Below, piece by piece: positions 7 through 16,145 of a stretch of 47,512 nucleotides of DNA (positions are counted from its first letter, which is position 1; each line of letters starts with the position of its first letter). The stretch is from positions 1 through 47,512 of the forward strand of contig CAILNT010000024.1 in the NCBI GenBank assembly GCA_903835655.1, read 5' to 3'. Both the position numbers and the translations under genes were made by a program. The notes under the pieces were generated by a model. It was not told the origin of the DNA, did not search any database, and worked only from the letters and a program-made list of their open reading frames with translations. This DNA comes from an uncultured Pseudomonadota bacterium (lineage in GTDB: Bacteria; Pseudomonadota; Gammaproteobacteria; Burkholderiales; Thiobacillaceae).

Positions 7-1671
7 TCAATGCAATTCGGCAGGTTGCGGCTGGACGATTTCTCGAATTCTGCCGAAGTCCATGCGTATCACCCGATCGGCGGCATCGAAGTAGCGGTCA
101 TCATGGCTGACCACTACCACGGTGTAGCCACGGGCGCGCAGTTCCGGCAACCACTGCCGATAAAACTGGTCCCTGTGCTCCGGGTCCTGTTCGGCACCGA
201 ATTCATCCAGGACCAGCAGTGGACGCCGTTCCAGATGGGCTACCGCGAGGGCCACACGCTTGCGCTGCCCGGTGGATAACGCCAAGGTCGTGAAGCAGCC
301 GTCATTGTGCCGGAAATCGGTTTTTCCAGCCAAGCCATAGTGATCGAGCAGATCACGCACGGTTTCAACCGGCGTATCGCGCTGCCCCAAGAGTTCCGAG
401 AAAAGAAAGAAATCGTTGAACACACTGGAGAATTGTTCCCGGTAAGCCTGCCGATCGGCTTCTCCGAGTGGTGTGCCGTTGAACAGAATTTGACCCGCAT
501 CGGGGTGGTACAACCCCGTCAGCAAACGCATCAACACCGTTTTCCCCGATCCGTTGCCGCCGACCACGAACACCACCTCTCCGCGTCGCAAGGCAAGATC
601 GATGGGGCCGATGTGGAAGCCGTCGATTTCCTGTCCGGATGCTTTGTCGAAGCGGAAGGTCACTCCGCGCAGTTCCAGGGATTCGAATGGGGGGAGGCCG
701 GGGTGACCCAGGGGGGGCTGGACTTCCTTGGTCGCCGCGGCCTCGTCGAGCAGATGTTGCAGATTGTCCATCGAGACCTGTGTTCTGCCGAAGCTGGCAA
801 AGGCCGAGACGACGCCGCTAAGCGGCCCGATGGTGAACAGGATGGCCGCGAGCAGTTTCATGATGGTGAGGGAATCGACGCCGGCCAGGATCGGCAGCAG
901 CAATGCCGCAGCCGCGATGGTGAGGTACTGGAATAGGTCCGTGGCCATGTTGCCCAGACTGGAGACCCGGGATTCGGCAACGGCCTCATGTAACTGCTGC
1001 TCATTGACGTCGCGGATTTGCTGCCGGTAGTCGGCTTCCTTGGCGCGCGACAGCCGCAACTCCTTGTAGCCCTGAAGATAGGCCAGGTGGTGGGCGTTGT
1101 TGGTGTTGTTCAACTGGTCCAGGCGCCGCCTCCGTTCGGTATTCGTGCGCTCGAAATGCCAGTGCACCTGCACGCCCACGAGGCTGATGAGGAGCGCAGA
1201 CACAAGCCCGATCCACGACAGCCAGCCGATGTAGATGAAGTTGAAGATCAGGGTGACGAGGGCATTGGCGAAGCCCAGCATGACGAAATAGGCGTCGGAA
1301 ACCACCGCGATCGTGTGGGTCAGGTGGTAGTGCAGTTGGGCAGGTTGTTCCCGCTCGATGAAGCGGAGATTGGCACCGCCGATCCGGTCGAGCAGTGCGT
1401 TGCGCAAGCGCATGGCGAGCAGAGTGGCCACCTGGCGCCCGCGCACGCTGGAGAAATAATCAGCGCCCAGAATGGCAGCGATCAACAGCAGGATGCCGGC
1501 CAGGTGATACAGCCCCAGGCCGTCTCGTCCGGCAGAAGCCACCGTGGTGATCAGAGCGAGAAACGAGCTGCGGGCAATGCCAGACACCAGGGAGGCCGTC
1601 AGCAGAAAGGGCCACTGTTGACGATCCTCGGGCGCGGTCGTGGAGCGCAGGGCTTTGGCGAGTTTGATCAC
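7..1671 (-). CDS. Cyclic-peptide-type ABC exporter, fused permease and ATPase
   Basis: A 554-residue half-transporter with an N-terminal membrane domain of about six helices (residues 20-300) and a C-terminal ATPase. Visible motifs are Walker A GGNGSGKT, the signature LSTGQRKR, Walker B LLVLDEFGAEQD and the switch VSHDD. The LSTGQ signature and overall layout match the SyrD/PvdE cyclic-peptide and siderophore exporter family, which moves lipopeptide or peptide precursors across the inner membrane. Its start overlaps the stop of the upstream glycosyltransferase by 4 nt (ATGA), so the two are co-translated. No peptide synthetase lies in the window, so the cargo may instead be a lipid-linked glycan made by the neighbours. 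Family assignment is firm; substrate is inference. Confidence 0.85.
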   Translation of the reverse strand: MIKLAKALRSTTAPEDRQQWPFLLTASLVSGIARSSFLALITTVASAGRDGLGLYHLAGILLLIAAILGADYFSSVRGRQVATLLAMRLRNALLDRIGGANLRFIEREQPAQLHYHLTHTIAVVSDAYFVMLGFANALVTLIFNFIYIGWLSWIGLVSALLISLVGVQVHWHFERTNTERRRRLDQLNNTNNAHHLAYLQGYKELRLSRAKEADYRQQIRDVNEQQLHEAVAESRVSSLGNMATDLFQYLTIAAAALLLPILAGVDSLTIMKLLAAILFTIGPLSGVVSAFASFGRTQVSMDNLQHLLDEAAATKEVQPPLGHPGLPPFESLELRGVTFRFDKASGQEIDGFHIGPIDLALRRGEVVFVVGGNGSGKTVLMRLLTGLYHPDAGQILFNGTPLGEADRQAYREQFSSVFNDFFLFSELLGQRDTPVETVRDLLDHYGLAGKTDFRHNDGCFTTLALSTGQRKRVALAVAHLERRPLLVLDEFGAEQDPEHRDQFYRQWLPELRARGYTVVVVSHDDRYFDAADRVIRMDFGRIREIVQPQPAELH

Positions 1672-3476
1672 GGTTGGAATCCCGATCTGGTTGAAGGGCG
1701 GGGAAGCCCGCTACAGCGCTCCGAAGTCCGGAACAAATCGGTCGACTCTATCCGATCCCTGACATCCCAGGCCAACACGTCTCGGTGCAGGCTGACGTGA
1801 TGAGCCGGATAACGCCGGGCGATGGTCGCGACGGGGTGATCCCCATGAAATGGCGATTCGAGATAGGTGGTTTCGTCGAGTTGGTCGATTTGCATGATCG
1901 CCAGGGATTCTCCGTAGAAATTCGGGTTCACCTGAACCGGTCGCAACCAAGTGTCGCCGTGGCGGAAAACGGCTCCCGCCGCTCTCGGCTGGGGCCGAGT
2001 CCGTGGTTCATGAATAAGTGCGTTGATGGGGTGAGCCGTCCAGTGGTTGGCATTCAGGTCAAAAGACCAGAAGACACCTAGGTGGCGTTCACTCGTGTCG
2101 TTTTCTCGCAGCGAAGTCATCAGCCACCAACGATCTCCATGAAAAAACGCCACGCTGTCAGCGGCGTCCAGGTCATCACGGAGGCGCGCCACCCTACGCC
2201 AGCGGTCCGGAAACCGTTCGCAAAGGTAGAGATCGATGCACCGACCCCGATGGGTTTCCGGAATCATGTACAGCCGGTCGCCCTGTTCCAGTAGAAAGGG
2301 AAAGGAAACATGGTATCGAAAGAAGAGGGGTTCCACCTGGCGTCGTACTCGCAGGTCTTCATCCAGTTCCAGTGCCAGAAGCCGGCCCTGGCTCTTGAGA
2401 TATTGGTAGTCCTCCACCAGAACCCAGACCGTGCCTTCGTGGACCAGGACGAACGGGTCAGCCCAGTAGCTGTGCCAGGGTGGAGTCAGCGCAACCGGCG
2501 CATCCCCGTTGCGCCGTACCATCAGGCGATAGTGGTCATGGGGCAGGCGCAGCAAGCCGTCCAGGCATGGCACCAAGGTGCGCTGAATGCGAAGGTTGGT
2601 CCTGTCCAGGTGTTTGTAGATGCCGTAGCCGAGGCGGACGGGAAAGTCGGCCCAGCGCGGCAGTGTATCGGGGATCTTGTGTCGGGAACTCATCCAGCGC
2701 ACCGGTCTGGGTGAGCTGATGTCGATCTCGCCCGGGTTGAGGGCGAGTTCGCCTCGAAGCTGGGCTTCGAGCAGCAGGATCGAAAGCAATGCCTGTTCCG
2801 GATTGTGCGCGGGAAGGCGCGGCGACCTGGGCGCGATGTGGGCTTCGATCAGCGCATGTCGCCGCCACGCCCTGGCAATGCGTAAAGCCACCGGGTGGGT
2901 GGCATCGAAACCGACCACACCCGCTACCCGCTCCTGTCGATCCAGTATTTCCGGCGAGGCCGCCAAGGCCGCCAGAGTCATCGGGTCACAACGCTCGCTG
3001 ATCGCCGCCTGACCGGCCAGTGTGTAGGTACCGAAACGGCCAAGCGTGGCACTGACCACATTCAGGTCATCGTGCAACAGCGTGGCACTGTCGAGCCAGA
3101 GCACCTGGCCCGAGCATTCATCGAGCAGGTCGGCAATGATGATCGGCTTCCACGCGTAGTGTCCGGAAGCCAGTGCGACGTGTGGCGGGTAGGCGGAAAA
3201 GTCGAAGTCACGCCATTCGCACCATGGGTGGAATCGCGCCAGTGCAAGGCGCTGATCGAGTGATAGACCCAGATCGTAGGCGATGAAGCGATGCCGATGC
3301 TGGAGGTGGTAGCGGGCTGCGGAACGAAGGAAACGATCGATGCAGCGGAAATAACCCTGGCTGGCGCCACTTGCAACGGTCAGTGTTGGAAGAGGGGCAT
3401 TGACCTGGCCTCGATCCACTAAAGATTCGGGCGTAGGCGATCTCGTTATTGGGCACTGCATTCTCTTGGCGATCAC
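1668..3476 (-). CDS. Two-domain glycosyltransferase with C-terminal beta-propeller
   Basis: 602 residues. Residues about 30-250 look like a GT-A nucleotide-sugar transferase, with a Rossmann-like start and the segment VLWLDSATLLHDD as a possible metal-binding motif. Residues about 300-580 contain the repeated W/DPF, VEDY and IPET blades typical of the propeller domain found in plant glucosamine inositolphosphorylceramide transferases (GINT1_N-like). The start is a GTG that overlaps the upstream stop by 4 nt; an ATG at 3461 is the alternative. It is coupled to the exporter downstream and the 866-residue glycosyltransferase upstream. The likely job is adding a sugar to a lipid- or phosphate-linked acceptor. 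Domain assignments come from pattern recognition only. Confidence 0.6.
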   Translation of the reverse strand: MIAKRMQCPITRSPTPESLVDRGQVNAPLPTLTVASGASQGYFRCIDRFLRSAARYHLQHRHRFIAYDLGLSLDQRLALARFHPWCEWRDFDFSAYPPHVALASGHYAWKPIIIADLLDECSGQVLWLDSATLLHDDLNVVSATLGRFGTYTLAGQAAISERCDPMTLAALAASPEILDRQERVAGVVGFDATHPVALRIARAWRRHALIEAHIAPRSPRLPAHNPEQALLSILLLEAQLRGELALNPGEIDISSPRPVRWMSSRHKIPDTLPRWADFPVRLGYGIYKHLDRTNLRIQRTLVPCLDGLLRLPHDHYRLMVRRNGDAPVALTPPWHSYWADPFVLVHEGTVWVLVEDYQYLKSQGRLLALELDEDLRVRRQVEPLFFRYHVSFPFLLEQGDRLYMIPETHRGRCIDLYLCERFPDRWRRVARLRDDLDAADSVAFFHGDRWWLMTSLRENDTSERHLGVFWSFDLNANHWTAHPINALIHEPRTRPQPRAAGAVFRHGDTWLRPVQVNPNFYGESLAIMQIDQLDETTYLESPFHGDHPVATIARRYPAHHVSLHRDVLAWDVRDRIESTDLFRTSERCSGLPRPSTRSGFQP

Positions 3477-6073
3477 TCAATGAAACCCAAGGTTCGTAAC
3501 CTGTTCGCATAGCGTTTTCCGATGGCTTCCGGGCTGTGGTTACCTTGGATGTACTCGTGGGCCTTGGCGCCGAGGTCGTTCCTGTAGGCGGTATCGGTGA
3601 CAACTTTGCGCATGTGCCACGCGGCGTGGTCAACGTCCGGCTGTGCCCAGGCCTGGCCTTCCTGATGGAAAACAAATTCACCCTTCTGGACGGGAACCAG
3701 TTCATAGTCGACCAGGCATGCGTTGTCGGAGTGGGTGAAATCGGTATTCCCAGAGTAGTTGGTTACAACGACGGGTTTGCCCAGATACATCGCCTCCGCC
3801 ATGACGAGACCGAAGCCCTCGGCGCGATGCAGGGATACCAGGCAATCACATGCGTCGATCATGGCCAGGACTTCAAGTCTATCCATCCTGAGATTCATGA
3901 CGATGATCCGGGTATCGCCTTCCATCAGACCGGTCAGCTTGGCCCAGGGTGCGCCCTTTGTATCGGCATTCATGGTCTTGAGCACCAGGCGCACGTCAGG
4001 ATCATTCGGGAATGCGAGTTTGAAGGCGCGGACGGCATCGAAGGGGTTTTTGCGGGAAAACAGCGAATGCGAATCGAAAAGGGTAAGAAAAAAAAAGACA
4101 TCCTTCGGCAAACCCCACCGCGCTCTAGTCATACGCTCGAATTTCGGCAGTGCGATGCATTGCGGCATATGGATCACGGGTAATCTGGACTTGGCGGCAA
4201 AGGATTCCTGCACGAACTGCGACATGGCCCAAATTTCGTCGATCATGCCCATGGTGGGCAGCCATGCATCGGGACATTCATTGAGTTCCCAGGCCCAGTA
4301 ACCGATGTTGTACTTGCCCCCGAAATATTCGTCACCGAGGGAGGCATAGGCGGCCAGCATCTGATCGGCGTTGACATGGAAAATGTTCGCCATGTGAGGA
4401 TTCATGTTCGTAACGGTACCTCGCCAAGTCCGTGCCGGGTTTCGAGGAGAATCCGGGGGGGCGACATCGGTTATGGATATCGATATGGCGGCCTTGTTGC
4501 ATGCTGTTGCGGCAAGGCGCAATTGCTCCCCCATGCCAAACTCTCCGTACGGATAACCGATCAAATTCGCACCTGGTTTGCCGTGTGGGGAGATGCGTGG
4601 TGCCACCAGATTGGATGCCTGGGATTTCAAGGGGACATGTGGCGTAATGCCGTATTCGCTTTCGGCGCATGCCTGGAACCACTCGATGAAGGCACGGCAA
4701 TCCCCCGGCTGATCGATCTTATAGAGTCGTTTCAGGTCGGGATGCATGGACCAAATCATATACATCAGGGAACTGACATAGATATCGTCAAGGGGCTGGG
4801 GAATGGTGGCTGGTCCGGAAAAAAGCCAGTACAACTTGGTTACCCCAAAGTCGTGTCCTGTCCACTGGAGCAGCTTGTACCAATAGCGATTGGTCAGATA
4901 TTGGTAGCGCAGTGGCAATCTCCGCCATATGGCATTCAGCACATAGTCGTCCAGGCGCTGCAGGAGGCGGTATGACCGAGGCTCTCTGCGAGTCCCACTT
5001 TCGAAAACTTGATGAGTATCCTGCGTCATCTGGATGATCGGGTGTTTCCGATCATGCTGGACAGGCATCTGGAGTCGAGTGACGACTTCGTCGGCGATGC
5101 CTGCGCTAAGGTATTGCGGTCTGGGGAAGGTCAGGCGATATCGTCTCCTGGTTTCGGCATCCAGTCGCCTCGAAGAGCAGGTTCGAGCGAAGGAATACGG
5201 CCAATGTCTGGTTTGGCTCAAGCCAGCGGCGCTCAGGTCCGATCGGTATTCATTACACAGGGCGGTCGCCTCGGCAAGGCATTCAATGCCGGCGTGGCAA
5301 TGAAAGCCGGGCAAGTCATTCGAATCGTCCTCGAACGGGTCGCTGAAATCGAAAAACCGTAGCGGCTCTCCGCCTGACTGCCAATGTCCGGCTTTGCTCA
5401 GCGAGAGCGGGTGTTGTACCAGATTGCAACACGTCGCGCCATAACCGGAATCCCTCAGGATGGACAGACGTTCCACATAACAAGGCGCCAGGTCACACCA
5501 GCGCTGATCCATATGTGGATCGCTCTTGTCGTTGGCGCAATGCAGCAGTTGCTGTCCCCACCAATCGATGAAGCGATTGGCCTCGGTGCATCGCTTCGCC
5601 GCCATGAAACCGAGATTGAATACCCCGGAGTCCAGGAATCGCTGGCCGTCATGATCCACTCCACTTTCGAGAGGTGCGGTGGCGTGCGGCGTCAGTACGA
5701 TCGCAGTACCCGATTGGAGGAGAGCTTCGAGTTGGTCGAGCCTTGAATAGACCTTGATATTTGCTTCGAAAAATACCGCGACTTCGGCTTCCTGTCTCGC
5801 CATAATCCATTGGAATGCAAAGGGCTTCAATGCCGCCGTCAACCCGGCTACATCATGGCGCAGGGTCAAGTCCAGAAAGGTTGGAATACCCAATTCCGAG
5901 GCCGGAAAAATGTGGAATTCTTCCTGATCTGGTTCGAAATGACCGTCCGGGCGGTCGATAAGGATCAGGATCGTGGTGTAATCGGGATGCCATTTTTTTA
6001 CCGAGGCGAAAAGTACCCGCACACCAGCGAGTTGATTTTTGGGCGCGATCGTGAATACAACGACGTTTTGCAT
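3473..6073 (-). CDS. Bifunctional glycosyltransferase (GT-A domain plus GT4-like domain)
   Basis: 866 residues. Residues 1-330 resemble a GT8-like nucleotide-sugar transferase (opening VVVFTIAPKN, then LDSGVFNLGFM). Residues about 370-470 form an alpha-helical linker, and 490-866 form a GT-B domain of the GT4 type with GYPYGEFGMGEQ, the donor-site region SLHRAEGFGLVMAEAM and GKPVVVTNYSGN. Such dual enzymes build alternating linkages in capsule or O-antigen chains. No good ribosome-binding site precedes the ATG; the upstream stretch is AT-rich. The gene is followed with a 4-nt overlap by the propeller-type glycosyltransferase. Base composition from here to about 7000 is visibly more AT-rich than the rest of the window, suggesting transfer. 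Confidence 0.8.
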   Translation of the reverse strand: MQNVVVFTIAPKNQLAGVRVLFASVKKWHPDYTTILILIDRPDGHFEPDQEEFHIFPASELGIPTFLDLTLRHDVAGLTAALKPFAFQWIMARQEAEVAVFFEANIKVYSRLDQLEALLQSGTAIVLTPHATAPLESGVDHDGQRFLDSGVFNLGFMAAKRCTEANRFIDWWGQQLLHCANDKSDPHMDQRWCDLAPCYVERLSILRDSGYGATCCNLVQHPLSLSKAGHWQSGGEPLRFFDFSDPFEDDSNDLPGFHCHAGIECLAEATALCNEYRSDLSAAGLSQTRHWPYSFARTCSSRRLDAETRRRYRLTFPRPQYLSAGIADEVVTRLQMPVQHDRKHPIIQMTQDTHQVFESGTRREPRSYRLLQRLDDYVLNAIWRRLPLRYQYLTNRYWYKLLQWTGHDFGVTKLYWLFSGPATIPQPLDDIYVSSLMYMIWSMHPDLKRLYKIDQPGDCRAFIEWFQACAESEYGITPHVPLKSQASNLVAPRISPHGKPGANLIGYPYGEFGMGEQLRLAATACNKAAISISITDVAPPDSPRNPARTWRGTVTNMNPHMANIFHVNADQMLAAYASLGDEYFGGKYNIGYWAWELNECPDAWLPTMGMIDEIWAMSQFVQESFAAKSRLPVIHMPQCIALPKFERMTRARWGLPKDVFFFLTLFDSHSLFSRKNPFDAVRAFKLAFPNDPDVRLVLKTMNADTKGAPWAKLTGLMEGDTRIIVMNLRMDRLEVLAMIDACDCLVSLHRAEGFGLVMAEAMYLGKPVVVTNYSGNTDFTHSDNACLVDYELVPVQKGEFVFHQEGQAWAQPDVDHAAWHMRKVVTDTAYRNDLGAKAHEYIQGNHSPEAIGKRYANRLRTLGFIE

Positions 6074-6149
6074 GCGCGTTATCGCTATTATTATTGAGGG
6101 AAGATCGTTGTGCCTGGGCTGGGATTCCGCATTGCGGTCGCTTATAATG

Positions 6150-6944
6150 TCAAGTCTGTCGGTCAGCGTTCACCGGAAAAAACATGCTGAATAAGGATTT
6201 ATTTTTGCCGGATTCGACTGTAGATTCTTCATTCTGGGCGTAGACTTCCATTTCGTGCCAGAACGTGTTGTAGTTGTTGGTGCCCCTGGCGTCAAACTTG
6301 GTGAGGTCGCCGCCTTCGGCGGGTTTGCTCCATGCCAGGATCATTCCATCGGGCAGGACAAATGCACGGTTTTTTTTCTCGTGGTTGGGGGTCAGTTCCA
6401 AGACGTCGCCGTAAATGAAGTCACTGCGGCCGCCATGAATAGCCAGGGCCTGTCCGAGCAGGGTTGGCCCGGTTGGACAAAGTGGGGTGATTCCGTAGTA
6501 ATCTGTCTTGCAGTTGTGCACGATATTCGCGATGGCTGTTTGCAGCGCATGATTGTCCGGCCGCGAGTATAAAATTGTATTGCTGCAGGCCCAGCTGGTC
6601 AATGAACAGCGTTGTATGTCCCTGAAGGCCAGGAAGGTAATATCTTCGTCAGGATGAAATGTGTTGATGCAGCGGATGGAAATGTCGAAATACCAGCCAC
6701 CGATCGCATTCAGCAGGCAATAGCGGCCGAGGTCCGCCTTGTAGGCATAGGGGCGCAGTTTGTCGAATGCCCAGGTCACTTCGGAGTCGTAATGCTGGCT
6801 GATGAATGCCCGCAGTGTTTCGCGGTTGAAGAGTGTGTGGTGTGCGTTGGGAAACGCCGCGCGAATCGTGTTGCTGGCACTTTCGAGTGCCGGGGGCAAT
6901 CTATTCTCGGGCGCGTCCGCGATGAAGATTTGTGAGATGTGCAT
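6150..6944 (-). CDS. OCH1/capsule-type glycosyltransferase (Gly_transf_sug family)
   Basis: About 264 residues from the chosen ATG. The segments FDKLRPYAYKADLGRYCLLN and GGWYFDIS match the DXD sugar-binding family (PF04488) of capsular and OCH1-like transferases. The usual GGxYxDxD motif here reads DIS, so its second acidic residue is missing. I placed the start at 6944 because family members begin just before a QIF/QIW segment and because the restored DUF4833 frame ends at 6961. ATGs at 7013 and 7019 are alternatives; the one at 7013 has GGAG at 7-nt spacing, but that lies inside the upstream coding frame. AT-rich compared with its neighbours. It probably adds a sugar to the same glycan as the two downstream transferases. 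Confidence 0.75.
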   Translation of the reverse strand: MHISQIFIADAPENRLPPALESASNTIRAAFPNAHHTLFNRETLRAFISQHYDSEVTWAFDKLRPYAYKADLGRYCLLNAIGGWYFDISIRCINTFHPDEDITFLAFRDIQRCSLTSWACSNTILYSRPDNHALQTAIANIVHNCKTDYYGITPLCPTGPTLLGQALAIHGGRSDFIYGDVLELTPNHEKKNRAFVLPDGMILAWSKPAEGGDLTKFDARGTNNYNTFWHEMEVYAQNEESTVESGKNKSLFSMFFPVNADRQT

Positions 6945-6960
6945 AGGCCTGTCTGGGAGC

Positions 6961-7436
6961 TTATGTATTGGATGGATTGCTTCTCTTGCCTGCAATGTCC
7001 CGGAAAACATCATAGGCATGCTCCGGTTTTACCCACGGGCCCAGGATGTTCATCCTGGCCTCGGCGCGGCACCCGGAATCCGTTCTGGCCAGTTCGACCC
7101 TGATGGGCCGGGAGGTGTCGCCAGCGATGGTGAAGATGATTGCGCTACCTTGTAGCTGTTGGATGGCGACCCCGTAGGCGAATTTTTTTCAGCCCAATTC
7201 AGTTCGCGCCGGTATTCGAGCCGATCCGTGCGCCGTATCCAATACGTGTGGACCGGTTCCGGGGCGAGCTCGCAGTCTTCGCTGGTCTGGGCAGCGTAAT
7301 GGACTTCGTTGCTGCTGTCGCTCTTGGCAAAATGAAACAGGGTTTGTGTCGCCGCTGCCCCGTTACCCGCCAGCGCAGGGGATGTCGTGGCCAGTGCTGT
7401 GACGAGCCAGGAAAGGGTCCGGCCTGGGTTTCTCAC
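6961..7436 (-). pseudogene. DUF4833-like exported protein, frameshifted at a seven-A run
   Basis: From the GTG at 7436, with GGAG 6 nt upstream, the frame gives a signal peptide (cleavage near SPALA/GN) followed by LFHFAKSDSSNEVHYAA and VHTYWIRRTD, which resemble DUF4833 proteins. At 7183-7189 there is a run of seven A on the coding strand. The uninterrupted frame then continues as low-complexity Ser/Pro-rich sequence to 7050. Moving to the other frame yields FAYGVAIQQLQGSAIIFTIA and NILGPWVKPEHAYDVF, ending in TAA at 6961, which is what the family should look like. One extra A would restore a 158-residue protein. It could be a real disruption, a slippage site or a sequencing error. Family name moderately sure; frameshift very clear. 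Confidence 0.7.
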
Positions 7437-7463
7437 GACTTTCTCCGCACCCGGAGCAAAGGA

Positions 7464-8729
7464 TCAGGGCTGGCGCTGGCGGCGGAACGCCAGCACCGCG
7501 TTGCTGCCGCCGAAGGCGAAGGAGTTGCACAGCGCGGCTTCGAGCGGTACGTCGCGCAGCGGGCCGCCGACGACGTGGCGCACGCCGGCGCACGCCGGGT
7601 CGATGTCGTCGAGATGGGCCGTGGGGGGGATGGCCTGGTGATACAGTGACAGTATGGTAGCGATGGATTCGATGACCCCCGTGGCGCCCAGCATGTGGCC
7701 GTGCATGGACTTGGTGGCGCTCACCGGCAGCGCCTCGGCATGGTCGCCGAACACCTCGCGGATCGCCGCGATCTCGATCGGGTCGCCTTCGCGGGTGGCG
7801 GTGCCGTGGGCGTTGACGTAGCCGATCTGAGCCGGGGCGAGATCGGCATCGGCCAGGGCGATCCGCATCGCGCGGACTTGCCCGTCGAGATTGGGACGGA
7901 CCAGGTGGCTGTGGTCGCAGGTGGCGCCGAAGCTGGCCAGTTCCGCGTAGATGCGGGCACCGCGCGCCACCGCCCGGTCCCAGTCTTCCAGGATGAAGGC
8001 GCCGCCGCCCTCGCCCAGTACCAGGCCCTGGCGCTGCCTATGGAAGGGGCGGCAGGCGTGCGCGGCAGTTTCCTCGTTGCCGTCGGCCAACACCCGCATG
8101 GCCTGCCAGGCGCGCAGTACGCCGTAGGACAGTGTGGCGTCGGAGCCACCGGCCACCACCACGCTGCATTCGCCGGAACGCACCCTGCGGAAGCCCTCAC
8201 CGATGGCGACCGTGGAGGATGAGCAGGCCACCGAAAAGGTGTGGCAGGGACCGGCCAGGCCCAGTTGCATCGCGATATGGGAGGCGCAGGCGTTGTTCAT
8301 GCCCATGATCACGCCCAGGGGGGAGATGCGGCCCGGCGGGCGTTGCAGATAGATGTTGCGGTAGCCGTCCTCGAAGGTCTGGGTGCCGCCCAGGGAGGTA
8401 CCCCAGGAAACCCCGCCGTCGCGCTGGTCGCCGGCGGCATCCACCGGCAACCCGGCATCGCGCCAGGCGGCCAGGGCTGAAGCGGTGCCGAGCTGGCTGT
8501 AGCGGTCCATCATGCGCGCCAGTGAGGCACCCAGGGCTGCTGAGGCATCGAAATCGAGACAGGGCGCGGCTGGCAGGCTGATCGGTACCGGTTCGTTTTC
8601 CTTGCTGTAGAGGCGGATGCCCGATTCGCCAGCCAGCAGCCGAGAGAAGAATATATCCGGATCGCAGCCGAACTGGCTGACGATACCGATGCCGGTAACG
8701 GCGACGCGTCGCTGGGTGGGGGCGGTCAG
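7464..8729 (-). CDS. Beta-ketoacyl-ACP synthase (KAS II/FabF-like), CTG start
   Basis: Condenses an acyl group with malonyl-ACP. Catalytic residues are intact: Cys in VACSSSTVAIGEG (about residue 169), His in NAHGTATREGD and His in KSMHGHMLGATG. The first ATG in frame, at 8513, would remove 72 residues including the conserved opening RRVAVTGIGIVSQFG, which is encoded without stops between 8514 and 8729. No ATG, GTG or TTG exists in that stretch. The best start is CTG at 8729, overlapping the ACP stop as CTGA and preceded by a G-rich run that could act as ribosome-binding site. Full length is then 421 residues, normal for the family. Paired with the ACP gene just upstream, it suggests a dedicated acyl chain for this locus. 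Confidence 0.85.
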   Translation of the reverse strand: MTAPTQRRVAVTGIGIVSQFGCDPDIFFSRLLAGESGIRLYSKENEPVPISLPAAPCLDFDASAALGASLARMMDRYSQLGTASALAAWRDAGLPVDAAGDQRDGGVSWGTSLGGTQTFEDGYRNIYLQRPPGRISPLGVIMGMNNACASHIAMQLGLAGPCHTFSVACSSSTVAIGEGFRRVRSGECSVVVAGGSDATLSYGVLRAWQAMRVLADGNEETAAHACRPFHRQRQGLVLGEGGGAFILEDWDRAVARGARIYAELASFGATCDHSHLVRPNLDGQVRAMRIALADADLAPAQIGYVNAHGTATREGDPIEIAAIREVFGDHAEALPVSATKSMHGHMLGATGVIESIATILSLYHQAIPPTAHLDDIDPACAGVRHVVGGPLRDVPLEAALCNSFAFGGSNAVLAFRRQRQP

Positions 8730-8983
8730 TTTGCGGCCCCCGTGTTTCTGGCGCGCAGGGCGTCGACGGCACCGACCAGTTCTCCCACGGTATCGGGGGT
8801 GGGAAAGTCGTTGGGCACGCTGATGCCGAACTTTTCTTCGAACTCGAAAATCAGTTCGAGCAGCATCAGCGAATCGATGTTGACGCTGCTCAGAGGCGAC
8901 TCCAGTGTGACCAATGCCGAATCCTGGTCGGAATGTTTCTTCAGAAACTCACGCAGCAGGGCGAGGGTGTCTGTTTCACTCAT
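8726..8983 (-). CDS. Acyl carrier protein
   Basis: 85 residues from the ATG at 8983, which has a GAGAG element upstream. The motif VNIDSLMLLELIFEFEEKFG carries the serine (DSL) that receives the phosphopantetheine arm, and the C-terminal helix region PTPDTVGELV is typical of ACPs. An upstream in-frame ATG at 9055 would add 24 residues that do not resemble ACP, so I rejected it. The stop overlaps the CTG start of the ketosynthase, so the pair is translationally coupled. A separate ACP/KAS pair outside a fatty-acid operon points to a specialised acyl group used in the neighbouring glycolipid or peptide pathway; this is inference. Confidence 0.9.
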   Translation of the reverse strand: MSETDTLALLREFLKKHSDQDSALVTLESPLSSVNIDSLMLLELIFEFEEKFGISVPNDFPTPDTVGELVGAVDALRARNTGAAN

Positions 8984-9104: not shown

Positions 9105-10886
9105 TCACACAAGGCGTGTGTCCATGAATTCAGCCGCTACCGCGGCGAAATGCGCATTGTCCTCGACCCCGCGCACCGCCACTCGAAAGTGACAGCCGGG
9201 CATGCCGGGCCGGTCGTCGATGCGCTTCACCAGATAGCCGCGCGCATAGCAGTGGGTTTCAAAGGACGTGGCGGCGTCCTTCGCCATCCGGAACAGGACA
9301 AAGTTGGTGGCGGTCGCGGTTACCTCGAAGCCCGCCGTGGCCAGCAGGGCTTCCAGGGTGACCCGGTTGGCGGCGATCTTGCGTAACGCCGCCAGGTATT
9401 CCGTGCGATAGCGCGGCAACAGTTCGAGAAAGGCTTCGGCCAGCGAACCCACGTTCCAGATCGGCAAGGCCTGGCGGACGCGCTCCACCAGATTCGTATC
9501 GGCGCAGGCCAGCATTCCCAGGCGCAGCCCGGGAATGCCGTGGGTCTTGCCGTAGCTGCGCAATACCAGGAGGTTGGGGTATTCCCGCAGCAGCGCGGCA
9601 TCCACCAGGGTCAGGGCCGTGTCGGCGAAATCCAGGAAGGACTCGTCCACCAGCACCCGGCGGTGGTTCCGCCGGGCATGGCTCACGAGCTGTAGCAAGG
9701 CATCGCGCGGCATCAATTCGCCGCTGGGATTGTTGGGATTGATCACGATCAGGCCTGCATCCCCGTCGCGCCAGGGGGTATAAGGGTCGGTCGCTGCCAG
9801 TTCTTGCAGGCGATCGCCGAACACGCGCCGGTATTCGAGGAAGTAGGGAGGGCGCACGGCGTAAGGGCCAGGCAAGACCGTGGCCAGGACCGAGAGCAGT
9901 TCGGACAGGCCATTGCCCAGCGCCAGGTGGTCACTCGCGACGTCCAGCGTTTTCGCTGCCAGACGGCAGATGATCGACTGCCTGGAAGGATACTCGCGCA
10001 CCAGCCGGTCGAATAGTCTGCCCAGTTCCTGGGTCATGGCGGCCGGTGGGAAGTAGGGATTCACCAGAAGGGTCAGATCCCGCATGTAGCGGTACTTCCA
10101 GAAGCCGCCGAAGTTGTCGCGCAGCCTGCGCGCGGCTTCGTCCTCGGGGGCGGTGACGATGCGCGCCCTGTGGTAATCGTCTTCGTCGTCGATCTCCACC
10201 CAGGCGTTGTCAGCGATGACGTGGATGTTGAAACCGGCCGGCAATGCGGGCGATACCAGTTTCAGGACGTCCTCATAGTAGGAATTGGCGCCGAAGGCCT
10301 GGACGTAGGCGGCGATGAAGCGGGCATAGACATTGCTGAAGAATCGCCCCGAGAAGCGGTACCAGTTGACGGTCTTGTAGAGCGCCTCGGGTGGGTAGTT
10401 GACGACATCCTGCTTGGAGACGAAGCCGCGAATTTGGTCTTGCGGCGAGTCGGCCACAACGCAGGTGCCATCCATCCAGTACTGGAAAGGACTGGCGAGC
10501 ACGACTTCGCTACCGGGGCTGGCCAGGAAGGCGGCCACCGCGTCGTGGCTTACCCAGACGTCGCTCTCGGCGACGATCACGCCGTCGGCTTGCGCGAGTT
10601 GCGGCAGTGCCAGAAAGAGCGAATAAATGTTGTTGGTGGACGCGTAGAGCTCGTTCTCGACGAAGGCCACGTCGAGATCGGGGAAGTGCACCCGCACATA
10701 GTCGATGACACCTTCCTTGCAATACCCCACCACGATCACGAAATGCCGTATCCCGGAGCGGATCAGGCTGGAAAGGGTGTGATGGATGAGCGGCAGTCCA
10801 TTCAGCTCCACCATGCACTTGGTGCGGTCCTCGGTCATGGCCTTCAGTCTGCGGCCCATTCCTGCCGCCAAAATACATGCGATCAT
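9105..10886 (-). CDS. Fusion: LicC/PntC-like cytidylyltransferase and CobD/HisC-like PLP enzyme
   Basis: 593 residues from ATG 10886 (GGAGAG upstream; the ATG-like start at 11003 adds unrelated sequence). Residues 1-245 are a nucleotidyltransferase: MIACILAAGMGRRL, the asparagine motif YASTNNIYSL shared by phosphocholine and 2-aminoethylphosphonate cytidylyltransferases, and WVEIDDEDDY. Residues about 265-593 are a class I/II PLP enzyme: NPNNPSGE, DESFLDF and the PLP lysine in LRSYGKTHGIPGLRLG (about K447). Relatives of the second half include L-threonine-phosphate and L-serine-phosphate decarboxylases and histidinol-phosphate aminotransferase. A simple model is phosphoserine to phosphoethanolamine (or a ketone-phosphate to an amino-alcohol phosphate), then CTP activation to a CDP-amino-alcohol for the two CDP-alcohol phosphotransferases nearby. 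Domains are clear; the reaction is inference. Confidence 0.85.
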   Translation of the reverse strand: MIACILAAGMGRRLKAMTEDRTKCMVELNGLPLIHHTLSSLIRSGIRHFVIVVGYCKEGVIDYVRVHFPDLDVAFVENELYASTNNIYSLFLALPQLAQADGVIVAESDVWVSHDAVAAFLASPGSEVVLASPFQYWMDGTCVVADSPQDQIRGFVSKQDVVNYPPEALYKTVNWYRFSGRFFSNVYARFIAAYVQAFGANSYYEDVLKLVSPALPAGFNIHVIADNAWVEIDDEDDYHRARIVTAPEDEAARRLRDNFGGFWKYRYMRDLTLLVNPYFPPAAMTQELGRLFDRLVREYPSRQSIICRLAAKTLDVASDHLALGNGLSELLSVLATVLPGPYAVRPPYFLEYRRVFGDRLQELAATDPYTPWRDGDAGLIVINPNNPSGELMPRDALLQLVSHARRNHRRVLVDESFLDFADTALTLVDAALLREYPNLLVLRSYGKTHGIPGLRLGMLACADTNLVERVRQALPIWNVGSLAEAFLELLPRYRTEYLAALRKIAANRVTLEALLATAGFEVTATATNFVLFRMAKDAATSFETHCYARGYLVKRIDDRPGMPGCHFRVAVRGVEDNAHFAAVAAEFMDTRLV

Positions 10887-11098: not shown

Positions 11099-12094
11099 TT
11101 GCCCACAGCCTCAGTTCTCCCCACTGGCCAGACAACCGCGAGCAGGCCACGTATCGATCTGGTCTACACCTGGGTGGACGATAGCTGGCCGGGATACATG
11201 AAAGAACTGGGCCGCTACGCCAGCCGGGACCATGACAGCAATCCCAACCGCACACGGGACAATCTCGATCTGCTGCGCTACAGCCTGCGCTCGGTGGCGC
11301 GTCATGCGCCCTGGCTGGGGAATGTCTATCTGCTGAGCATGCGGCCACAAGTTCCTGGCTGGCTGGATACCGGGCATCCTCGCCTGCGCATCGTGCACCA
11401 CGACCAGATCATGGACCCGGCGCTGCTGCCCACCTTCAATTCCTTTGCCATCGTCTCGCACCTGCATGCCCTACCCGGCGTTTCCAGCCCATTCCTGTAC
11501 CTGGAAGACGACATGCTGTTCGGCGCTAGCGTGAGCCCGGCTGACTTCATGGATGCGGCCGGACGCACCCGATTGTTCGTTCAGCGGCAGACCACACCGG
11601 AAGCGGCGCAGCGGGAACGGACCGATATCTCGCCGTGGAACGCCGCCCTCGCCCGAGCCAACCACCTGCTCGACGGTCGTTTCGGCGCGGACTCCCGGCG
11701 GCGCCACGTCAACCATGTGCCGTTGCTGGTCTACCCGGAGCTCTGGCGGGAAACCCTGGAACAATGGCCCGAGGCCATCGCCCATACCCGCGCCAGCCGA
11801 TTTCGCGATGTCGGCAACGTGCCGCCCGAATATCTCTACCCCCATTACGCCCTCGCCACCGGCCGCGCAGCAAGCGCCCCGGCGGCAAGCGTGAAGCAGG
11901 ATTTCTTTTACTTTCCCCTGGAGAACTGGCGGCTTCACGCGCGCTTGTGCACGAGCTGGGTCGATTGGCATGGCCCCAAGTTCATGACCTTGAACGATAA
12001 TTTCGGCGCTCGCCCGAACCCGGCGGTAGTGGCCCATCTGCGAGCGACCCTGGAACGCTGGTATCCCGATCCCAGTCCGTTCGAGAAGCGCTAG
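11099..12094 (+). CDS. Stealth-family sugar-1-phosphate transferase
   Basis: Stealth proteins transfer a hexose-1-phosphate from a nucleotide sugar to build phosphodiester-linked capsules; they are relatives of GlcNAc-1-phosphotransferase. The conserved regions appear in order: CR1 RIDLVYTWVDDSWPGY, CR2 with DNLDLLRYSLRSVARHAPW, LPTFNSFAIVSHLH and PFLYLEDDMLFG, then CR3/CR4-like VNHVPLLVYPE and TLNDNFG near the end. No ATG precedes CR1; TTG at 11099 has AGGA upstream and gives 331 residues, and TTG at 11024 is another option. It is the only plus-strand gene in the locus, diverging from the cytidylyltransferase fusion across about 210 bases and converging tail to tail (3-nt gap) with a CDP-alcohol phosphotransferase. 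Confidence 0.85.
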   Translation: MPTASVLPTGQTTASRPRIDLVYTWVDDSWPGYMKELGRYASRDHDSNPNRTRDNLDLLRYSLRSVARHAPWLGNVYLLSMRPQVPGWLDTGHPRLRIVHHDQIMDPALLPTFNSFAIVSHLHALPGVSSPFLYLEDDMLFGASVSPADFMDAAGRTRLFVQRQTTPEAAQRERTDISPWNAALARANHLLDGRFGADSRRRHVNHVPLLVYPELWRETLEQWPEAIAHTRASRFRDVGNVPPEYLYPHYALATGRAASAPAASVKQDFFYFPLENWRLHARLCTSWVDWHGPKFMTLNDNFGARPNPAVVAHLRATLERWYPDPSPFEKR

Positions 12095-12097
12095 GGC

Positions 12098-12796
12098 CTA
12101 CTGTTTCAGCCGGCCCAGGGATTCGATCTGAGCGCTCAGAAAATCGCCCAGGGAATAGGCAAGCAGCCAGACCAGCAGCCAGCGTGTATGTCCGGACCAG
12201 ACGGCGGCGGCGAGCAGCAAGGGTGCCAGGCGGTCCAGGCCGCTGAGAAAGGCGAACAGCTTCTGGTCGCTCGATAGCCGCGCGGTGTCCGCGATCTCGT
12301 TGGGCTCCCCCACTGCCGCATCGGCATAGAGGCGACAGGCGCGCGCCAGAATGGCGAGCAAGGCGGCCCCCAGTCCGATAGCCGAAGCCATGCCGACGAC
12401 CCCTGGGGCGGGTTCCGTCAGCAGGCCGATAGCCAGATAGAAAGTTGCCCGGTAGAGCAGGTCGCAGACGAAATCGGTGTAGGCACCGTCGCGCGAGACG
12501 CGTCCGGAAACCCGCGCGACATTGCCATCGACGCAATCCAGTACGCAAAACACCAAGGCCATGGCCGCCACCGCCATGCCCGCGCCGTTCACCGCCAGCA
12601 CGGGCAGGGACAGTGCGAAGAGCAGGCCGGCCAGGGTGATCACGGTGGGCGGCAGCGGCAAAAATAATGGCGTGAGCAGGATAGCCAGAGGACGGTACAT
12701 CAGGGCGCTCGCCCAATCGGTCAGCAGTTCGTGGCGGAACCGCGGCCGGTAGCCGGCGAGGGTCGCACGCAGGACGCTCAGCGGGCTTCTATCCAT
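12098..12796 (-). CDS. CDP-alcohol phosphotransferase (first of two)
   Basis: 232-residue integral membrane enzyme. The family signature DxxDGxxAR-(8)-GxxxDxxxD is complete from about residue 87: DCVDGNVAR, then GAYTDFVCD. Such enzymes move a phospho-alcohol or phosphatidyl group from a CDP donor to an alcohol at the membrane. The ATG at 12796 overlaps the stop of the upstream GT4 gene by 8 nt, so it is coupled. It is quite different in sequence from the second copy at 13949-14572, suggesting a different acceptor or donor. Likely donors are CDP-diacylglycerol or the CDP-amino-alcohol predicted from the nearby fusion enzyme. Function beyond family is not known. Confidence 0.85.
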   Translation of the reverse strand: MDRSPLSVLRATLAGYRPRFRHELLTDWASALMYRPLAILLTPLFLPLPPTVITLAGLLFALSLPVLAVNGAGMAVAAMALVFCVLDCVDGNVARVSGRVSRDGAYTDFVCDLLYRATFYLAIGLLTEPAPGVVGMASAIGLGAALLAILARACRLYADAAVGEPNEIADTARLSSDQKLFAFLSGLDRLAPLLLAAAVWSGHTRWLLVWLLAYSLGDFLSAQIESLGRLKQ

Positions 12797-13952
12797 CACG
12801 GGCAAGGCGGTGGCCGGGCGAATTGGCGGTCAACACGGCAACGAAGTCCGCGAGGCGGGCCGTGACGTCGGCGGTCAGTGCCTGGCCCCTGCCCCATGTA
12901 GACAAGTCGCGGCAGAGTGCGGGCGCGTCGAGAAATTCGGACAGGCGCGCCGCCAGTTCCGCCACGTTGCCGGGCGGCACCAGGCCAGCGGCGCCCTGGC
13001 CGGTCAGCACGCCGCTGTAGCCGCTGTTGCTCGCGGCCACCAGAGGCAGCCCGGCGGCCATCGCTTCGACCAGTACCAGGCCGTAACTCTCGCCATAGGG
13101 AGAGGGGGCGCAAAATAGGTCGGCTTCGCCATAGAGTCGGCGCTTGGCCGCCTCGTCGAGGCGACCGGTGAACTGGATGGCGTCGGCGACCGCCAGGCGT
13201 GTGGCTAGCGCGCGCGCCGCTGCCGCCTGCTCGCCGTCGCCGCAGATCACGAGACGAGCAGCGGGATGGTTGCGGCGCACCTGGGCGAAGGCTTCGATCA
13301 GCAGCAGCACTCCCTTGCGCGGCTCCAGGCGGCCGATGAACAGGAGGGTGGGCGCCTGGCCGTCGCGGGACGGGCGCGGCAGTTCCAGCAGCGGGGCCAG
13401 GTCGATCACCGGTGGCAGGCAGTGGCAAGCACAGTTGGGCGCCAGCCGCAGGTGGCCGGCTGGCGAGGCGGAGACGGCGATGGCGGCATCGAGCCGACTG
13501 GATAGGGCCCGGCTCAGGAGGCGGAAGGCGACGCGGGTGATGCGCCCGGACAGGGTGGGCGGGGGGGTGTCATGGAAGGTGGCGACGCGGCGGGGTACTC
13601 GTCCTGCCAGGCGGCGGAACACCTGCCAGGGCAGCAGGGGCGTCCACAAGGTATGGAAATGGGCCACGTCGAAGGGCCGTTCCTCATGCAGGCGCGCCAG
13701 GGCGTCGAGTTCGCGCGAACCCGCCCAGGTGGCCTCGAAAGCGGTGCCGTGCATGCGCCACTCGCAGAAACCGCCGATCCGCAACACGCGGTAGCCGTCG
13801 CATTGTTCCCAGGCGGGCGCCGCGTCGGTACCGGGTGCCAGGACCACTGCGTCATGCCCGGCCCGCCCCAGGGCGCGGGCGAGGTCGAGGATGTGCCGCT
13901 GCACGCCGCCAGGGCGGGCGATGTCGTAGGGGCAGACCTCCAGGACTCTCAC
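12789..13952 (-). CDS. GT4 family glycosyltransferase
   Basis: 387 residues starting at GTG 13952, which overlaps the upstream CDP-alcohol phosphotransferase stop (GTGA). The N-terminal acceptor domain opens with VRVLEVCPYDIARPGGVQRH, typical of GT4 enzymes. The C-terminal donor domain shows LLFIGRLEPRKGVLLLIEAF, VICGDGE and the E-x7-E region SPYGESYGLVLVEAMAAGLP. Retaining enzymes of this family use nucleotide sugars and act at the inner face of the cytoplasmic membrane. A long in-frame extension to 14534 runs through the neighbouring gene and is not real. Its position between two CDP-alcohol phosphotransferases suggests it glycosylates the lipid or phospho-alcohol they make. Confidence 0.9.
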   Translation of the reverse strand: MRVLEVCPYDIARPGGVQRHILDLARALGRAGHDAVVLAPGTDAAPAWEQCDGYRVLRIGGFCEWRMHGTAFEATWAGSRELDALARLHEERPFDVAHFHTLWTPLLPWQVFRRLAGRVPRRVATFHDTPPPTLSGRITRVAFRLLSRALSSRLDAAIAVSASPAGHLRLAPNCACHCLPPVIDLAPLLELPRPSRDGQAPTLLFIGRLEPRKGVLLLIEAFAQVRRNHPAARLVICGDGEQAAAARALATRLAVADAIQFTGRLDEAAKRRLYGEADLFCAPSPYGESYGLVLVEAMAAGLPLVAASNSGYSGVLTGQGAAGLVPPGNVAELAARLSEFLDAPALCRDLSTWGRGQALTADVTARLADFVAVLTANSPGHRLARDG

Positions 13953-14572
13953 CGCAACGGGTGCTGCTGATCGCAATCGATCAGGCGTCGCCGCGCACGC
14001 AGGAAGCGTTGCCAGGCGGTCAGGTGGGCCAGCGCCCCCAGCAGCAACAGCCCGCCTGGCAGAATCGGCCAGCCGTGACCGGCCAGCAGGGTGTCGGCCA
14101 ACAGCAGTGCGATCAGGACGATCATCCGTTCCAGGCGCTCCAGCAGGTCGGGCCAGTCGTTGTTGTCGACGGCGATTTCCAGCGCGACCCGTGCCTTGTT
14201 GTAGCTGGTCAGCAGGGCGCCGGTGATGGCGAAGAAGGCAGCCGGCCAGCAGCCCTGCATCCAGGCGATGGCCCCCAGTACGATGATTTCCTGGTAGCGG
14301 TCGACCACGGCGTCGAGATAGCCGCCGAAGCGGGTGGAGCGTCCGGTGAGTCGGGCGACGGCGCCGTCGAGGCCATCGCTGGCCAGCGCCACCACCAGGC
14401 ACAAGCCATAGGCCAGGCTGTTTCCATGCCACAGGTAGGCCAGACTGGCCAACACTACCAGGACCAGGCCGGCCAGGGTCACCGCGTTGGGCGAGCAACC
14501 GGCGCGGATCAGGCCGCGCGCGAGGAATTCCCAAATACGGCGGGTATGGGCGCCGAAACGGGCGTCGATCAT
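13949..14572 (-). CDS. CDP-alcohol phosphotransferase (second of two)
   Basis: 207-residue membrane protein from ATG 14572, with a good GGAG site. The signature is complete: D66 and D69 in DGLDGAVAR, then G83, D87 and D91 in GGYLDAVVD. Several hydrophobic helices follow, and the helix after the signature carries SYNKARVALEI. The start is 19 nt after the stop of the FGGY kinase and the end overlaps the GT4 gene. Possible substrates are a CDP-activated sugar alcohol or amino-alcohol and a lipid or inositol-like acceptor. The adjacent kinase could supply the phosphorylated alcohol. The family is certain; substrate unknown. Confidence 0.88.
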   Translation of the reverse strand: MIDARFGAHTRRIWEFLARGLIRAGCSPNAVTLAGLVLVVLASLAYLWHGNSLAYGLCLVVALASDGLDGAVARLTGRSTRFGGYLDAVVDRYQEIIVLGAIAWMQGCWPAAFFAITGALLTSYNKARVALEIAVDNNDWPDLLERLERMIVLIALLLADTLLAGHGWPILPGGLLLLGALAHLTAWQRFLRARRRLIDCDQQHPLR

Positions 14573-14591
14573 GGTGGCTCTCCGATTCGGG

Positions 14592-16145
14592 TCAATTCCG
14601 ATGCCAGCGTCGGGTAGCACGCCAGAAACCGAGTAGTTTCCGGTAACGCTTCTCGGACCAGTCGCGCACGGCCGGGTCCGGTTCGATCACCGGCCCCAGG
14701 CGCGCCAGTTGGCTGGCGGCGGCGAAACTGACGAACCAGCCGCAGGCCCGTGCTGCGGTCATGGCGGCGCCGCGGGAACCCGCCAGGGCTGGATTGTCCA
14801 CCACCTGCAAGGGGCGTTGCAGTGTGTCAGCGAGGATGCGGGCCCATACCGCGCTGCCAGCGCCACCGCCCATCAGGCGCAAGGGGGCGGTCGTTGCCGG
14901 CAGCAAGCGTTCCGCATGGCTCAGCGCCCACCGGGTATTCAAGGCGACGCCGGCCAGGACGCCATAGGCGAGATCGCTGCGGTTGCTGCGCAGCGACGCC
15001 CCGGCCAGGGCACCACGCAGATTCGAGTCGTCCACGGGTACGCGCTCGCCATAGAGCCAGGGCATGAAATGCGGCGTGTCCGGGCCGGGACGGGCCTGAC
15101 CGGCGGCCTCGTCGAGGGCGTGCAGGCCCGCCGTACCTTGGCCAAAGCCGAAGGTTTCCGCCGCCCAGCGCGCGGCGCCACCGGCGCTTTCCTGGGTGGC
15201 GACCAGAAAATAACGATCCGGGTGCGCAGCGCAGAGGGTCGCGATGCCGGTGAAGGGATCGACGCGCCGTCGCCAGGAGTGCGCACCCAGCCACATGCTG
15301 GTGCCCAGATGCAGGTGATAGACGCCTGGGTTGTGGTCACCGGCGGCCAGGGCGCAGGCATTCACGTCGCCACAACCGCCCGCCACGGGGAGTCCGGCGG
15401 GCAGCCCGAGGAAGGCGGCTGCGGCCGCCGTGAGAGTGCCCGCCACAGCTCCGGACTCGACGATCTCCGGCAGCCGTTCCCGGTTCAGCCCTACGCGGCG
15501 CAGCCAGGCATCCGACCAATCCCGCCGGCCCACACGGTTGTCCATCAGCCAGGTGAGTTGGGCCACATCGGGTGTGGTGACAAAGCGGCCGGTCAGGCGA
15601 TGGATCAGCCAGTCCTTGACATCGAGAAAGCGAGCCGCCTGGTGCCACACTTCCGGCATGGTTTCGCGAAACCAGAGGATCTTGGTCAATGGGTCCTTAC
15701 CCGACAGGTTGGGCGCGCCATTCGCCAGCCACAGCCAGGAGGCTAAGCGAAATGCGCCATAGCCGGCGACGCGCGGGCCGCCCGCGGTGACCTTACGGGC
15801 GATCGCGGCGGAACGGGTATCGATCCAGATCAAACACGGGTGCAGGGGTTCGCCGTCGGCTGCGACCGGGATGGTGCCGGCCATCTGCGCGGCCAGGCCG
15901 AGGCCGCGGATGCGCGTGCCTGCCGCTTGCTCCAGCAGGCGCAGCGTCACGGTCCGCATCGCCCGCCACCAGTCTTGCGGGTGTTGTTCGGCATGACCGG
16001 GTTGCGGAAGCTGGAGCGGGTAAGGCTCGCCGGCACTCGCCACGATGTGGCCGGCGCGGTCCACCAGCGCGGCCTTCAACGAAGAGGTACCGAAATCGTA
16101 GCCGATGACCAGATCGTCGGCGGCGGGTTCGCGAGTGGTAGGCAA
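14592..16145 (-). CDS. FGGY-family carbohydrate/polyol kinase
   Basis: About 517 residues. Phosphorylates a sugar or sugar alcohol with ATP. Visible features are the phosphate-binding start IGYDFGTSSLKAALVD, the sugar-binding WIDTRS region, the catalytic GGCGDVNACALAAGD region and the ATP-site glycines in LRLMGGGAGSAVWARILAD. It most resembles xylulokinase-like members. No ATG or GTG exists between the end of the upstream gene and the conserved N-terminus; TTG at 16145 is the first usual start, without an evident ribosome site. It lies directly upstream of a CDP-alcohol phosphotransferase, so its product may be a polyol phosphate destined for cytidylylation. That role is inference. Confidence 0.85.
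   Translation of the reverse strand: MPTTREPAADDLVIGYDFGTSSLKAALVDRAGHIVASAGEPYPLQLPQPGHAEQHPQDWWRAMRTVTLRLLEQAAGTRIRGLGLAAQMAGTIPVAADGEPLHPCLIWIDTRSAAIARKVTAGGPRVAGYGAFRLASWLWLANGAPNLSGKDPLTKILWFRETMPEVWHQAARFLDVKDWLIHRLTGRFVTTPDVAQLTWLMDNRVGRRDWSDAWLRRVGLNRERLPEIVESGAVAGTLTAAAAAFLGLPAGLPVAGGCGDVNACALAAGDHNPGVYHLHLGTSMWLGAHSWRRRVDPFTGIATLCAAHPDRYFLVATQESAGGAARWAAETFGFGQGTAGLHALDEAAGQARPGPDTPHFMPWLYGERVPVDDSNLRGALAGASLRSNRSDLAYGVLAGVALNTRWALSHAERLLPATTAPLRLMGGGAGSAVWARILADTLQRPLQVVDNPALAGSRGAAMTAARACGWFVSFAAASQLARLGPVIEPDPAVRDWSEKRYRKLLGFWRATRRWHRN

Follow-up and report, generated by a model that had tools for sequence, protein, structure and literature searches.

Two gene modules for a probable surface sugar-lipid in a Thiobacillaceae genome, with an apparent phosphonate/phosphate exchange between sister species

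The window analysed here, 47,512 nucleotides of DNA from an uncultured member of the Thiobacillaceae, is the whole of contig C24 in a genome of 3.67 Mb that is 99.98% complete (G000), and it carries at positions 7-16145 a gene cluster for the probable synthesis of a surface sugar-lipid. Since the window is the entire contig, the locus may extend past base 1; the gene next after the exporter in a related genome, G008, was sought in G000 as its continuation, with no match at E<=1e-8. Read downward from 16145 on the minus strand, the cluster begins with an FGGY kinase, a CDP-alcohol phosphotransferase (CDP-OH2), a family 4 glycosyltransferase (GT4) and a second CDP-alcohol phosphotransferase (CDP-OH1), followed by a Stealth protein on the plus strand and then, again on the minus strand, by a cytidylyltransferase fused to a pyridoxal phosphate (PLP) enzyme, an acyl carrier protein (ACP), a ketosynthase (KS), a DUF4833 gene, three sugar-transferase-like proteins and an ATP-binding cassette (ABC) exporter. 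The locus is not one operon, as the Stealth gene (about 11150-12094) is on the plus strand and all others are on the minus strand. It consists of two modules, of which module A comprises the kinase, the two CDP-alcohol phosphotransferases, both resembling phosphatidylinositol phosphate (PIP) synthases, Stealth and GT4, and module B the fusion with its own ACP and KS, variable glycosyltransferases and the exporter. All families that an earlier, sequence-only reading had named at 7-16145 are borne out by domain matches and motifs, to which the DUF4833 gene at 7050-7436 is to be added, and the catalytic motifs checked are intact, namely the Cys/His/His of the KS, the DSL serine of the ACP and DxxDGxxAR...GxxxDxxxD in each CDP-OH_P_transf protein.

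Within module A, the xylulokinase-like FGGY kinase (14592-16145, start approximate) scores below the equivalog cut-off of the xylulokinase family TIGR01312 (283.1 versus 380.25 bits). CDP-OH2 (13949-14572) has its best family matches among PIP synthases and archaetidylinositol phosphate synthase, again below the equivalog cut-offs (NF040950, 121 versus 180; NF045883, 93 versus 170), and this family likeness together with the adjoining kinase makes the joining of a phospho-sugar or polyol to a CDP-activated lipid a natural inference. CDP-OH1 (12098-12805; 30.1 bits versus a cut-off of 22) is a distant paralogue of CDP-OH2. The GT4 protein (12789-13943, start approximate) matches PF00534 at 4.3e-37, and the Stealth protein (11150-12094, start approximate), of a sugar-1-phosphate transferase family, has CR1-CR4 in order, with CR2, CR3 and CR4 above the gathering score and CR1 below it (22.1 versus 27.2).

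In module B, the fusion gene (9105-10886) is followed by the ACP (8726-8983; PF00550, 1.6e-06) and the FabF-like KS (7464-8729), which is full length at 421 residues only with a proposed CTG start at 8729, the first ATG removing 72 residues. The DUF4833 gene (7050-7436) matches profile positions 1-53 of 138; compared with the complete G008 copy of 183 residues it contains a frameshift, either from gene decay or from an error of assembly. Three glycosyltransferase-like genes separate KS/DUF4833 from the exporter, namely a GT32-like DXD glycosyltransferase (6150-7019; PF04488, 1.7e-06, 29 bits versus a cut-off of 23), a large protein with a C-terminal GT4 domain (3473-6073; PF00534, 7.3e-13) and a DUF1647 and GINT1_N protein that is a possible glycosyltransferase (1668-3476; GINT1_N, 6.8e-18; DUF1647, 3.6e-07). 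The first two are low in GC (0.53 and 0.55, respectively, versus 0.63 for the window), and the equivalent interval of G008 holds an RgpF-like protein and, on the minus strand, a frame whose Glyco_transf_9 match is sub-threshold. Surface-glycan loci typically have constant flanks around a changing set of glycosyltransferases. The exporter (7-1671) belongs to the cyclic-peptide-export subfamily (TIGR01194, 305.9 bits versus a cut-off of 286.2). Elsewhere in the window (21181-25817), a SPOR-domain outer-membrane efflux protein precedes a C39-peptidase ABC transporter, and the two resemble a separate export system.

The fusion chain consists of an NTP_transf_3 domain (residues 1-~250), whose closest fit is LicC, followed by a CobD-like PLP domain of the Aminotran_1_2 family (~257-593), whose closest fits are CobD and SMUL_1544. 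This is the domain plan of FrbH, which already shows it according to the accessible parts of its published descriptions (PMC6697681, PMC8007912). The catalytic lysine of the nucleotidyl motif GXG(T/S)RX4-8PK, Lys23, is the same residue in all 24 fusions aligned, and the window's version of the motif, GMGRR...TK, deviates at the T/S and P positions. As the top Foldseek match, 6pd2, reaches a TM-score of only 0.37, we do not claim a domain arrangement. Phosphoenolpyruvate (PEP) mutase was sought in G000 and G008 and gave neither a PF13714 match at E<=0.001, at which 11 of 14 control genomes were positive, nor a TIGR02320 match; its absence from G000 rules out a phosphonate reading of the window. 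Similarly, LicD (PF04991) was absent from all three genomes searched (G000, G008 and G011, one of them 84% complete), which rules it out as the transferase. Our best guess from the CobD/SMUL_1544 and LicC fits and the missing PEP mutase is that the fusion would yield a phospho-amino-alcohol. This supports the phospho-amino-alcohol proposed earlier. The teichoic-acid-like polymer proposed with it gains no support, as neither Glyphos_transf (PF04464, TagF-type) nor LicD was matched among the locus proteins scanned, the PF04464 search being confined to these proteins.

Comparison with the genus relatives G008 and G011 separates the two modules. G008, whose assembly is 84% complete, shares with the window Stealth, the fusion, ACP (87% identity), KS (93%), DUF4833 and the exporter (66%), and the window's kinase and CDP-OH2 had no matches there at the thresholds used; this is weak evidence of absence because the contig breaks off shortly after Stealth and the genome is incomplete. 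G011, for which the open reading frames (ORFs) of GC-rich stretches were called by a codon-based caller, carries on one strand the kinase (74-75% identity), CDP-OH2 (79%), Stealth, CDP-OH1 (48%), GT4 (67%) and a fatty acid desaturase. Some 3 kb and three opposite-strand genes past the desaturase there follows a PEP mutase fused to a nucleotidyltransferase (NTase), then a phosphonopyruvate decarboxylase, a protein like 2-aminoethylphosphonate (AEP) transaminase, a second NTase, a sulfatase-family protein, a pair of genes resembling, by eye, those for a GT2 and a GtrA protein, and finally ACP (55%) and KS (75%), the span from kinase to KS being about 20 kb. The PEP mutase-NTase gene lies at 2467-4164 of the G011 stretch L116, with the separate second NTase three genes downstream. 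The PEP mutase (TIGR02320, 385 bits versus 319.55) and the decarboxylase exceed their curated cut-offs, the transaminase-like protein falls below its own (335 versus 360.8), and the fusion has no match in G011 at E<=1e-20. The N-terminal half of the fusion bears only a remote likeness to the G011 NTases (35% over 109 residues for one of them), so that the exchange is not a simple domain swap. Among the 23 genomes of the genus, PEP mutase exceeds the cut-off in G011 alone, 16 having some match and the others of these lying below the cut-off, and the genomes with either the fusion or this PEP mutase are exactly those with Stealth (chance of a random three-in-23 match 1/1771, relatedness ignored). 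Our reading is that one species provides the ethanolamine-type head group in phosphonate form and the others provide it as a phosphate ester, an apparent exchange between sister species that looks new.

The gene-by-gene distribution is sparse. In a set of 149 genomes, which includes G000 and mostly relatives from its genus, family and order (with the same 22 genus relatives as above), Stealth was found in three at E<=1e-30 (G000, G008, G011), CDP-OH2 in two at E<=1e-25 (G000, G011) and the full-length fusion in two (G000, G008), with 10 further genomes matching over the PLP half only. The kinase matched in five at E<=1e-60, where beyond the window's own copy only that of G011 is close (75%) and the other three are at 34-38%. 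A class-wide draw gave CDP-OH2 in one of 369 genomes, the window's own, and a phylum-wide draw the fusion at E<=1e-30 in three of 398, full length only in the window's own. CDP-OH2 had no match on the plasmids searched, and Stealth matched in 47 plasmid records, all below 60% identity, the best row at 36%. The locus is an accessory island and not a core pathway. No second genome with the exact gene set emerged among those searched gene by gene, and what recurs, in G000 and G011, is the subset of kinase, both CDP-alcohol phosphotransferases, Stealth, GT4, ACP and KS. Lack of joint conservation, which the earlier reading had named as refuting its idea, applies to the exact set and does not apply to this subset. 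The cluster looks new as a gene set, its exact composition being without counterpart in the genomes examined. These distributions and the G008 and G011 comparisons rule out a single conserved operon, and the earlier idea of one undescribed pathway with exactly this set gives way to two modules that part in the sister genomes, and the plan of the fusion is known from FrbH.

The fusion itself is not unique to the locus, since the order of its domains has been described before and relatives over the full length are common elsewhere, which likewise rules out an orphan confined to G000. A tblastn search returned at least 571 relatives, fused or not; among the matches listed, 80 of 80 span the query, starting at residue 1-3 and ending at 577-590, and most are from Bacillota, Bacteroidota and Spirochaetota. 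Together with nine others, three of them unfused, this gave 89 loci, 85 of which hold an uninterrupted fusion frame of more than 1,500 bases. Within 3 kb of the fusion our own profiles matched LicD in 26, an octopine-dehydrogenase-like protein in 19 and a methyltransferase in 14 of the 85, and an AepX-profile match lay within 10 kb in nine. Relative to the rest of the same loci, match density near the fusion was 6.6-fold for LicD, 12.3-fold for octopine dehydrogenase, 58-fold for the methyltransferase (zero far matches, 0.5 assumed), 3.9-fold for AepX and 0.7-fold for an ABC transporter control. All seeds of the LicD profile and some of those of the methyltransferase profile were near-fusion genes, which biases both to near matches, whereas unfused rhizobial loci supplied the seeds for octopine dehydrogenase and AepX. 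The AepX profile was iterated, its match in locus L111 starting, by eye, like a CTP_transf-type protein. Pfam assignment of 121 immediate same-strand neighbours gave Methyltransf_11 16 times, Octopine_DH 15, Glyphos_transf 14, LicD 11 (a count free of seeding bias), CDP-OH three and PEP_mutase three times. A LicD-family enzyme accepts CDP-ethanolamine in vitro, according to the accessible part of PMC11982090. In a tree of 86 fusions, association with PEP mutase is spread over the branches (three label changes versus a shuffled mean of 3.4, 257 of 500 shuffles being as low), and no clade tied to PEP mutase was seen. A KS and ACP near the fusion in L111 look, by eye and by gene order, like the acpP-fabF pair followed by rnc, and are not counted as support.

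Fusion and CDP-OH genes stand beside a flavin N-hydroxylase-like protein (weak Pfam match) and an Antibiotic_NAT protein on Priestia megaterium pBM700 (L024, 7951-13635), which additionally holds a DXP reductoisomerase copy, and on a Rahnella sikkimica plasmid (L022, 10713-20360); neither stretch has a match of our PEP mutase profile. Both look like a route to fosfoxacin or fosfocytocin, the latter being a CMP ester. In Herbinix hemicellulosilytica (L043, 8351-14175), fusion and CDP-OH lie between two inverted 396-residue ORFs with identical first 60 residues, by eye transposase copies, and are perhaps a mobile cassette. In L020, L025, L026 and L035 the NTase and PLP-type halves are unfused (NTase match only in L035) and each stretch also holds a CDP-OH gene; the first three carry an annotated aepX. 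An octopine/nopaline-dehydrogenase-like gene near the fusion, as in Providencia rettgeri (L044, 8997-9998), could make N-carboxyalkyl ethanolamine head groups. Such head groups are found in Proteus-type O-antigens. In L080, L081, L091, L103, L106 and others a small S-adenosylmethionine (SAM) methyltransferase directly follows the fusion (Pfam for L081 and L091), and the pair might produce CDP-choline or methylated ethanolamine without any need for choline. Fosfoxacin and fosfocytocin are natural phosphate relatives of fosmidomycin, as the accessible part of PMC9782300 states.

From the gene content, families, motifs, sister-genome comparisons and missing PEP mutase and LicD, all of them observed, we infer substrates, step order, final product and acceptor as follows. 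The fusion would cytidylylate O-phospho-L-serine with CTP and decarboxylate it, in either order, to give CDP-ethanolamine, the phosphate counterpart of the CMP-2-aminoethylphosphonate that G011 appears able to make in the equivalent locus. The ACP-KS pair would provide a dedicated acyl chain, the kinase would phosphorylate a sugar or polyol, which CDP-OH2 would couple to a CDP-activated lipid, a sugar and a sugar-1-phosphate would be added by GT4 and Stealth, respectively, CDP-OH1 is a candidate for phosphoethanolamine transfer, and the variable glycosyltransferases would complete the glycan for the exporter to carry out. As a whole, a surface glycolipid or glycan bearing the product of a CDP-ethanolamine-forming fusion is our best explanation, one to which we give an even chance. 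Several points weigh against it. The use of CDP-ethanolamine by CDP-OH1, argued from co-location and the lack of LicD in three genomes, is the weakest link, and the small CDP-OH proteins found next to the fusion in Rahnella, Priestia and Herbinix are close neither to CDP-OH1 nor to CDP-OH2. Moreover, the window and G008 fusions form a long isolated branch on the tree, so that the specificity of the family cannot be transferred to them with full confidence. Finally, fusion and module A can part, as module A and ACP-KS occur in G011 with no fusion beside them, G008 has the fusion and ACP-KS without kinase or CDP-OH2 matches, and the exporter is unmatched in the compared G011 stretches. These last observations would suit two unrelated neighbouring pathways, in which module A makes one lipid and module B another product, but the modules lie within ~16 kb in G000 and ~20 kb in G011 and Stealth adjoins the fusion in G008 and sits inside module A in G011; we regard this alternative as serious, if rather improbable.

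With respect to the substrate, the name CobD would suggest O-phosphothreonine as the starting compound of the fusion and CDP-(R)-1-amino-2-propanol as its product, and indeed the threonine-phosphate decarboxylase family TIGR01140 is the best NCBIfam match, and Salmonella CobD the best fold match, of the PLP half. The TIGR01140 score is nevertheless below the cut-off (171 versus 290.6), and the substrate of FrbH has a phosphoserine-like skeleton. In addition, the best sequence match is SMUL_1544, proposed to yield ethanolamine phosphate in the accessible part of PMC4585668, and we therefore consider the phosphothreonine substrate unlikely. A further alternative is that the PLP half does not decarboxylate and that the activated group retains its carboxylate, for example as a CDP- or CMP-linked amino acid. 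The Glyphos_transf and methyltransferase neighbours of the family (14 and 16 of 121) are compatible with this, and phospho-N-methylthreonine is a known bacterial glycan group on Clostridioides difficile type A flagellin, according to the accessible part of PMC8861647, but the best matches of the PLP half are decarboxylase-type, and we think this quite improbable. A small secreted metabolite, fosfoxacin-like or lipopeptide-like, is suggested by the FrbH-type fusion, the ACP-KS pair, the cyclic-peptide-type exporter and related fusions in apparent antibiotic clusters on plasmids, but it is very improbable for a locus that has no N-hydroxylase or acetyltransferase match among its proteins and instead five sugar or sugar-phosphate transferase genes and two CDP-alcohol enzymes.

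Returning to the CDP-ethanolamine reading, we tentatively propose, at somewhat less than even confidence, that within one genus the same glycolipid locus is served either by an AEP route (PEP mutase, decarboxylase, transaminase and NTase) or by a fusion making the isosteric CDP-ethanolamine from phosphoserine, that the fusion represents a widespread, unnamed de novo route to CDP-ethanolamine, and that its neighbours elsewhere modify the donor. If so, bacteria would have a soluble CDP-ethanolamine synthesis independent of choline and ethanolamine, and methyltransferase or octopine-dehydrogenase-type neighbours would convert its product to CDP-choline-like or N-carboxyalkyl donors without uptake of either compound. 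The natural swap of a phosphonate for a phosphate head group at one locus would be the most interesting and directly testable part. Among the titles and abstract openings searched, which leave most subscription journals and preprints outside their coverage, none presents the fusion as a CDP-ethanolamine synthase or describes this gene set. As the fusion family is widespread, naming its product would aid the annotation of many surface-glycan loci.

The locus can finally be set beside known systems. FrbH of the FR-900098 pathway of Streptomyces, judged by the accessible part of its published description, likewise combines a cytidylyltransferase and a PLP decarboxylase in one protein with a conserved nucleotidyl lysine, but works in a phosphonate pathway, whereas the window's fusion stands amid sugar and lipid enzymes in a genome without PEP mutase. 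The Pnt loci, with PntC-AEPT of Treponema denticola (6pd2), share the LicC-like activation of an aminoethyl-phosphorus group for surface decoration and a two-domain NTase and PLP plan; the PLP domain of PntC-AEPT is, however, a class V transaminase, and the window genome lacks PEP mutase. In the Lic-1 phosphocholine pathway (LicA-D) a LicC-like domain also makes a CDP-amino-alcohol donor, but the window genome has no LicD and its amine would derive from phosphoserine and not from imported choline. PIP synthases and archaetidylinositol phosphate synthase share the CDP-OH motif and are the best family matches of CDP-OH2, which differs from them in scoring below their equivalog cut-offs and in its adjoining FGGY kinase. 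Similarly, the Stealth capsule transferases have the same CR1-CR4 order, whereas the Stealth protein of the window stands beside CDP-alcohol enzymes and a kinase.

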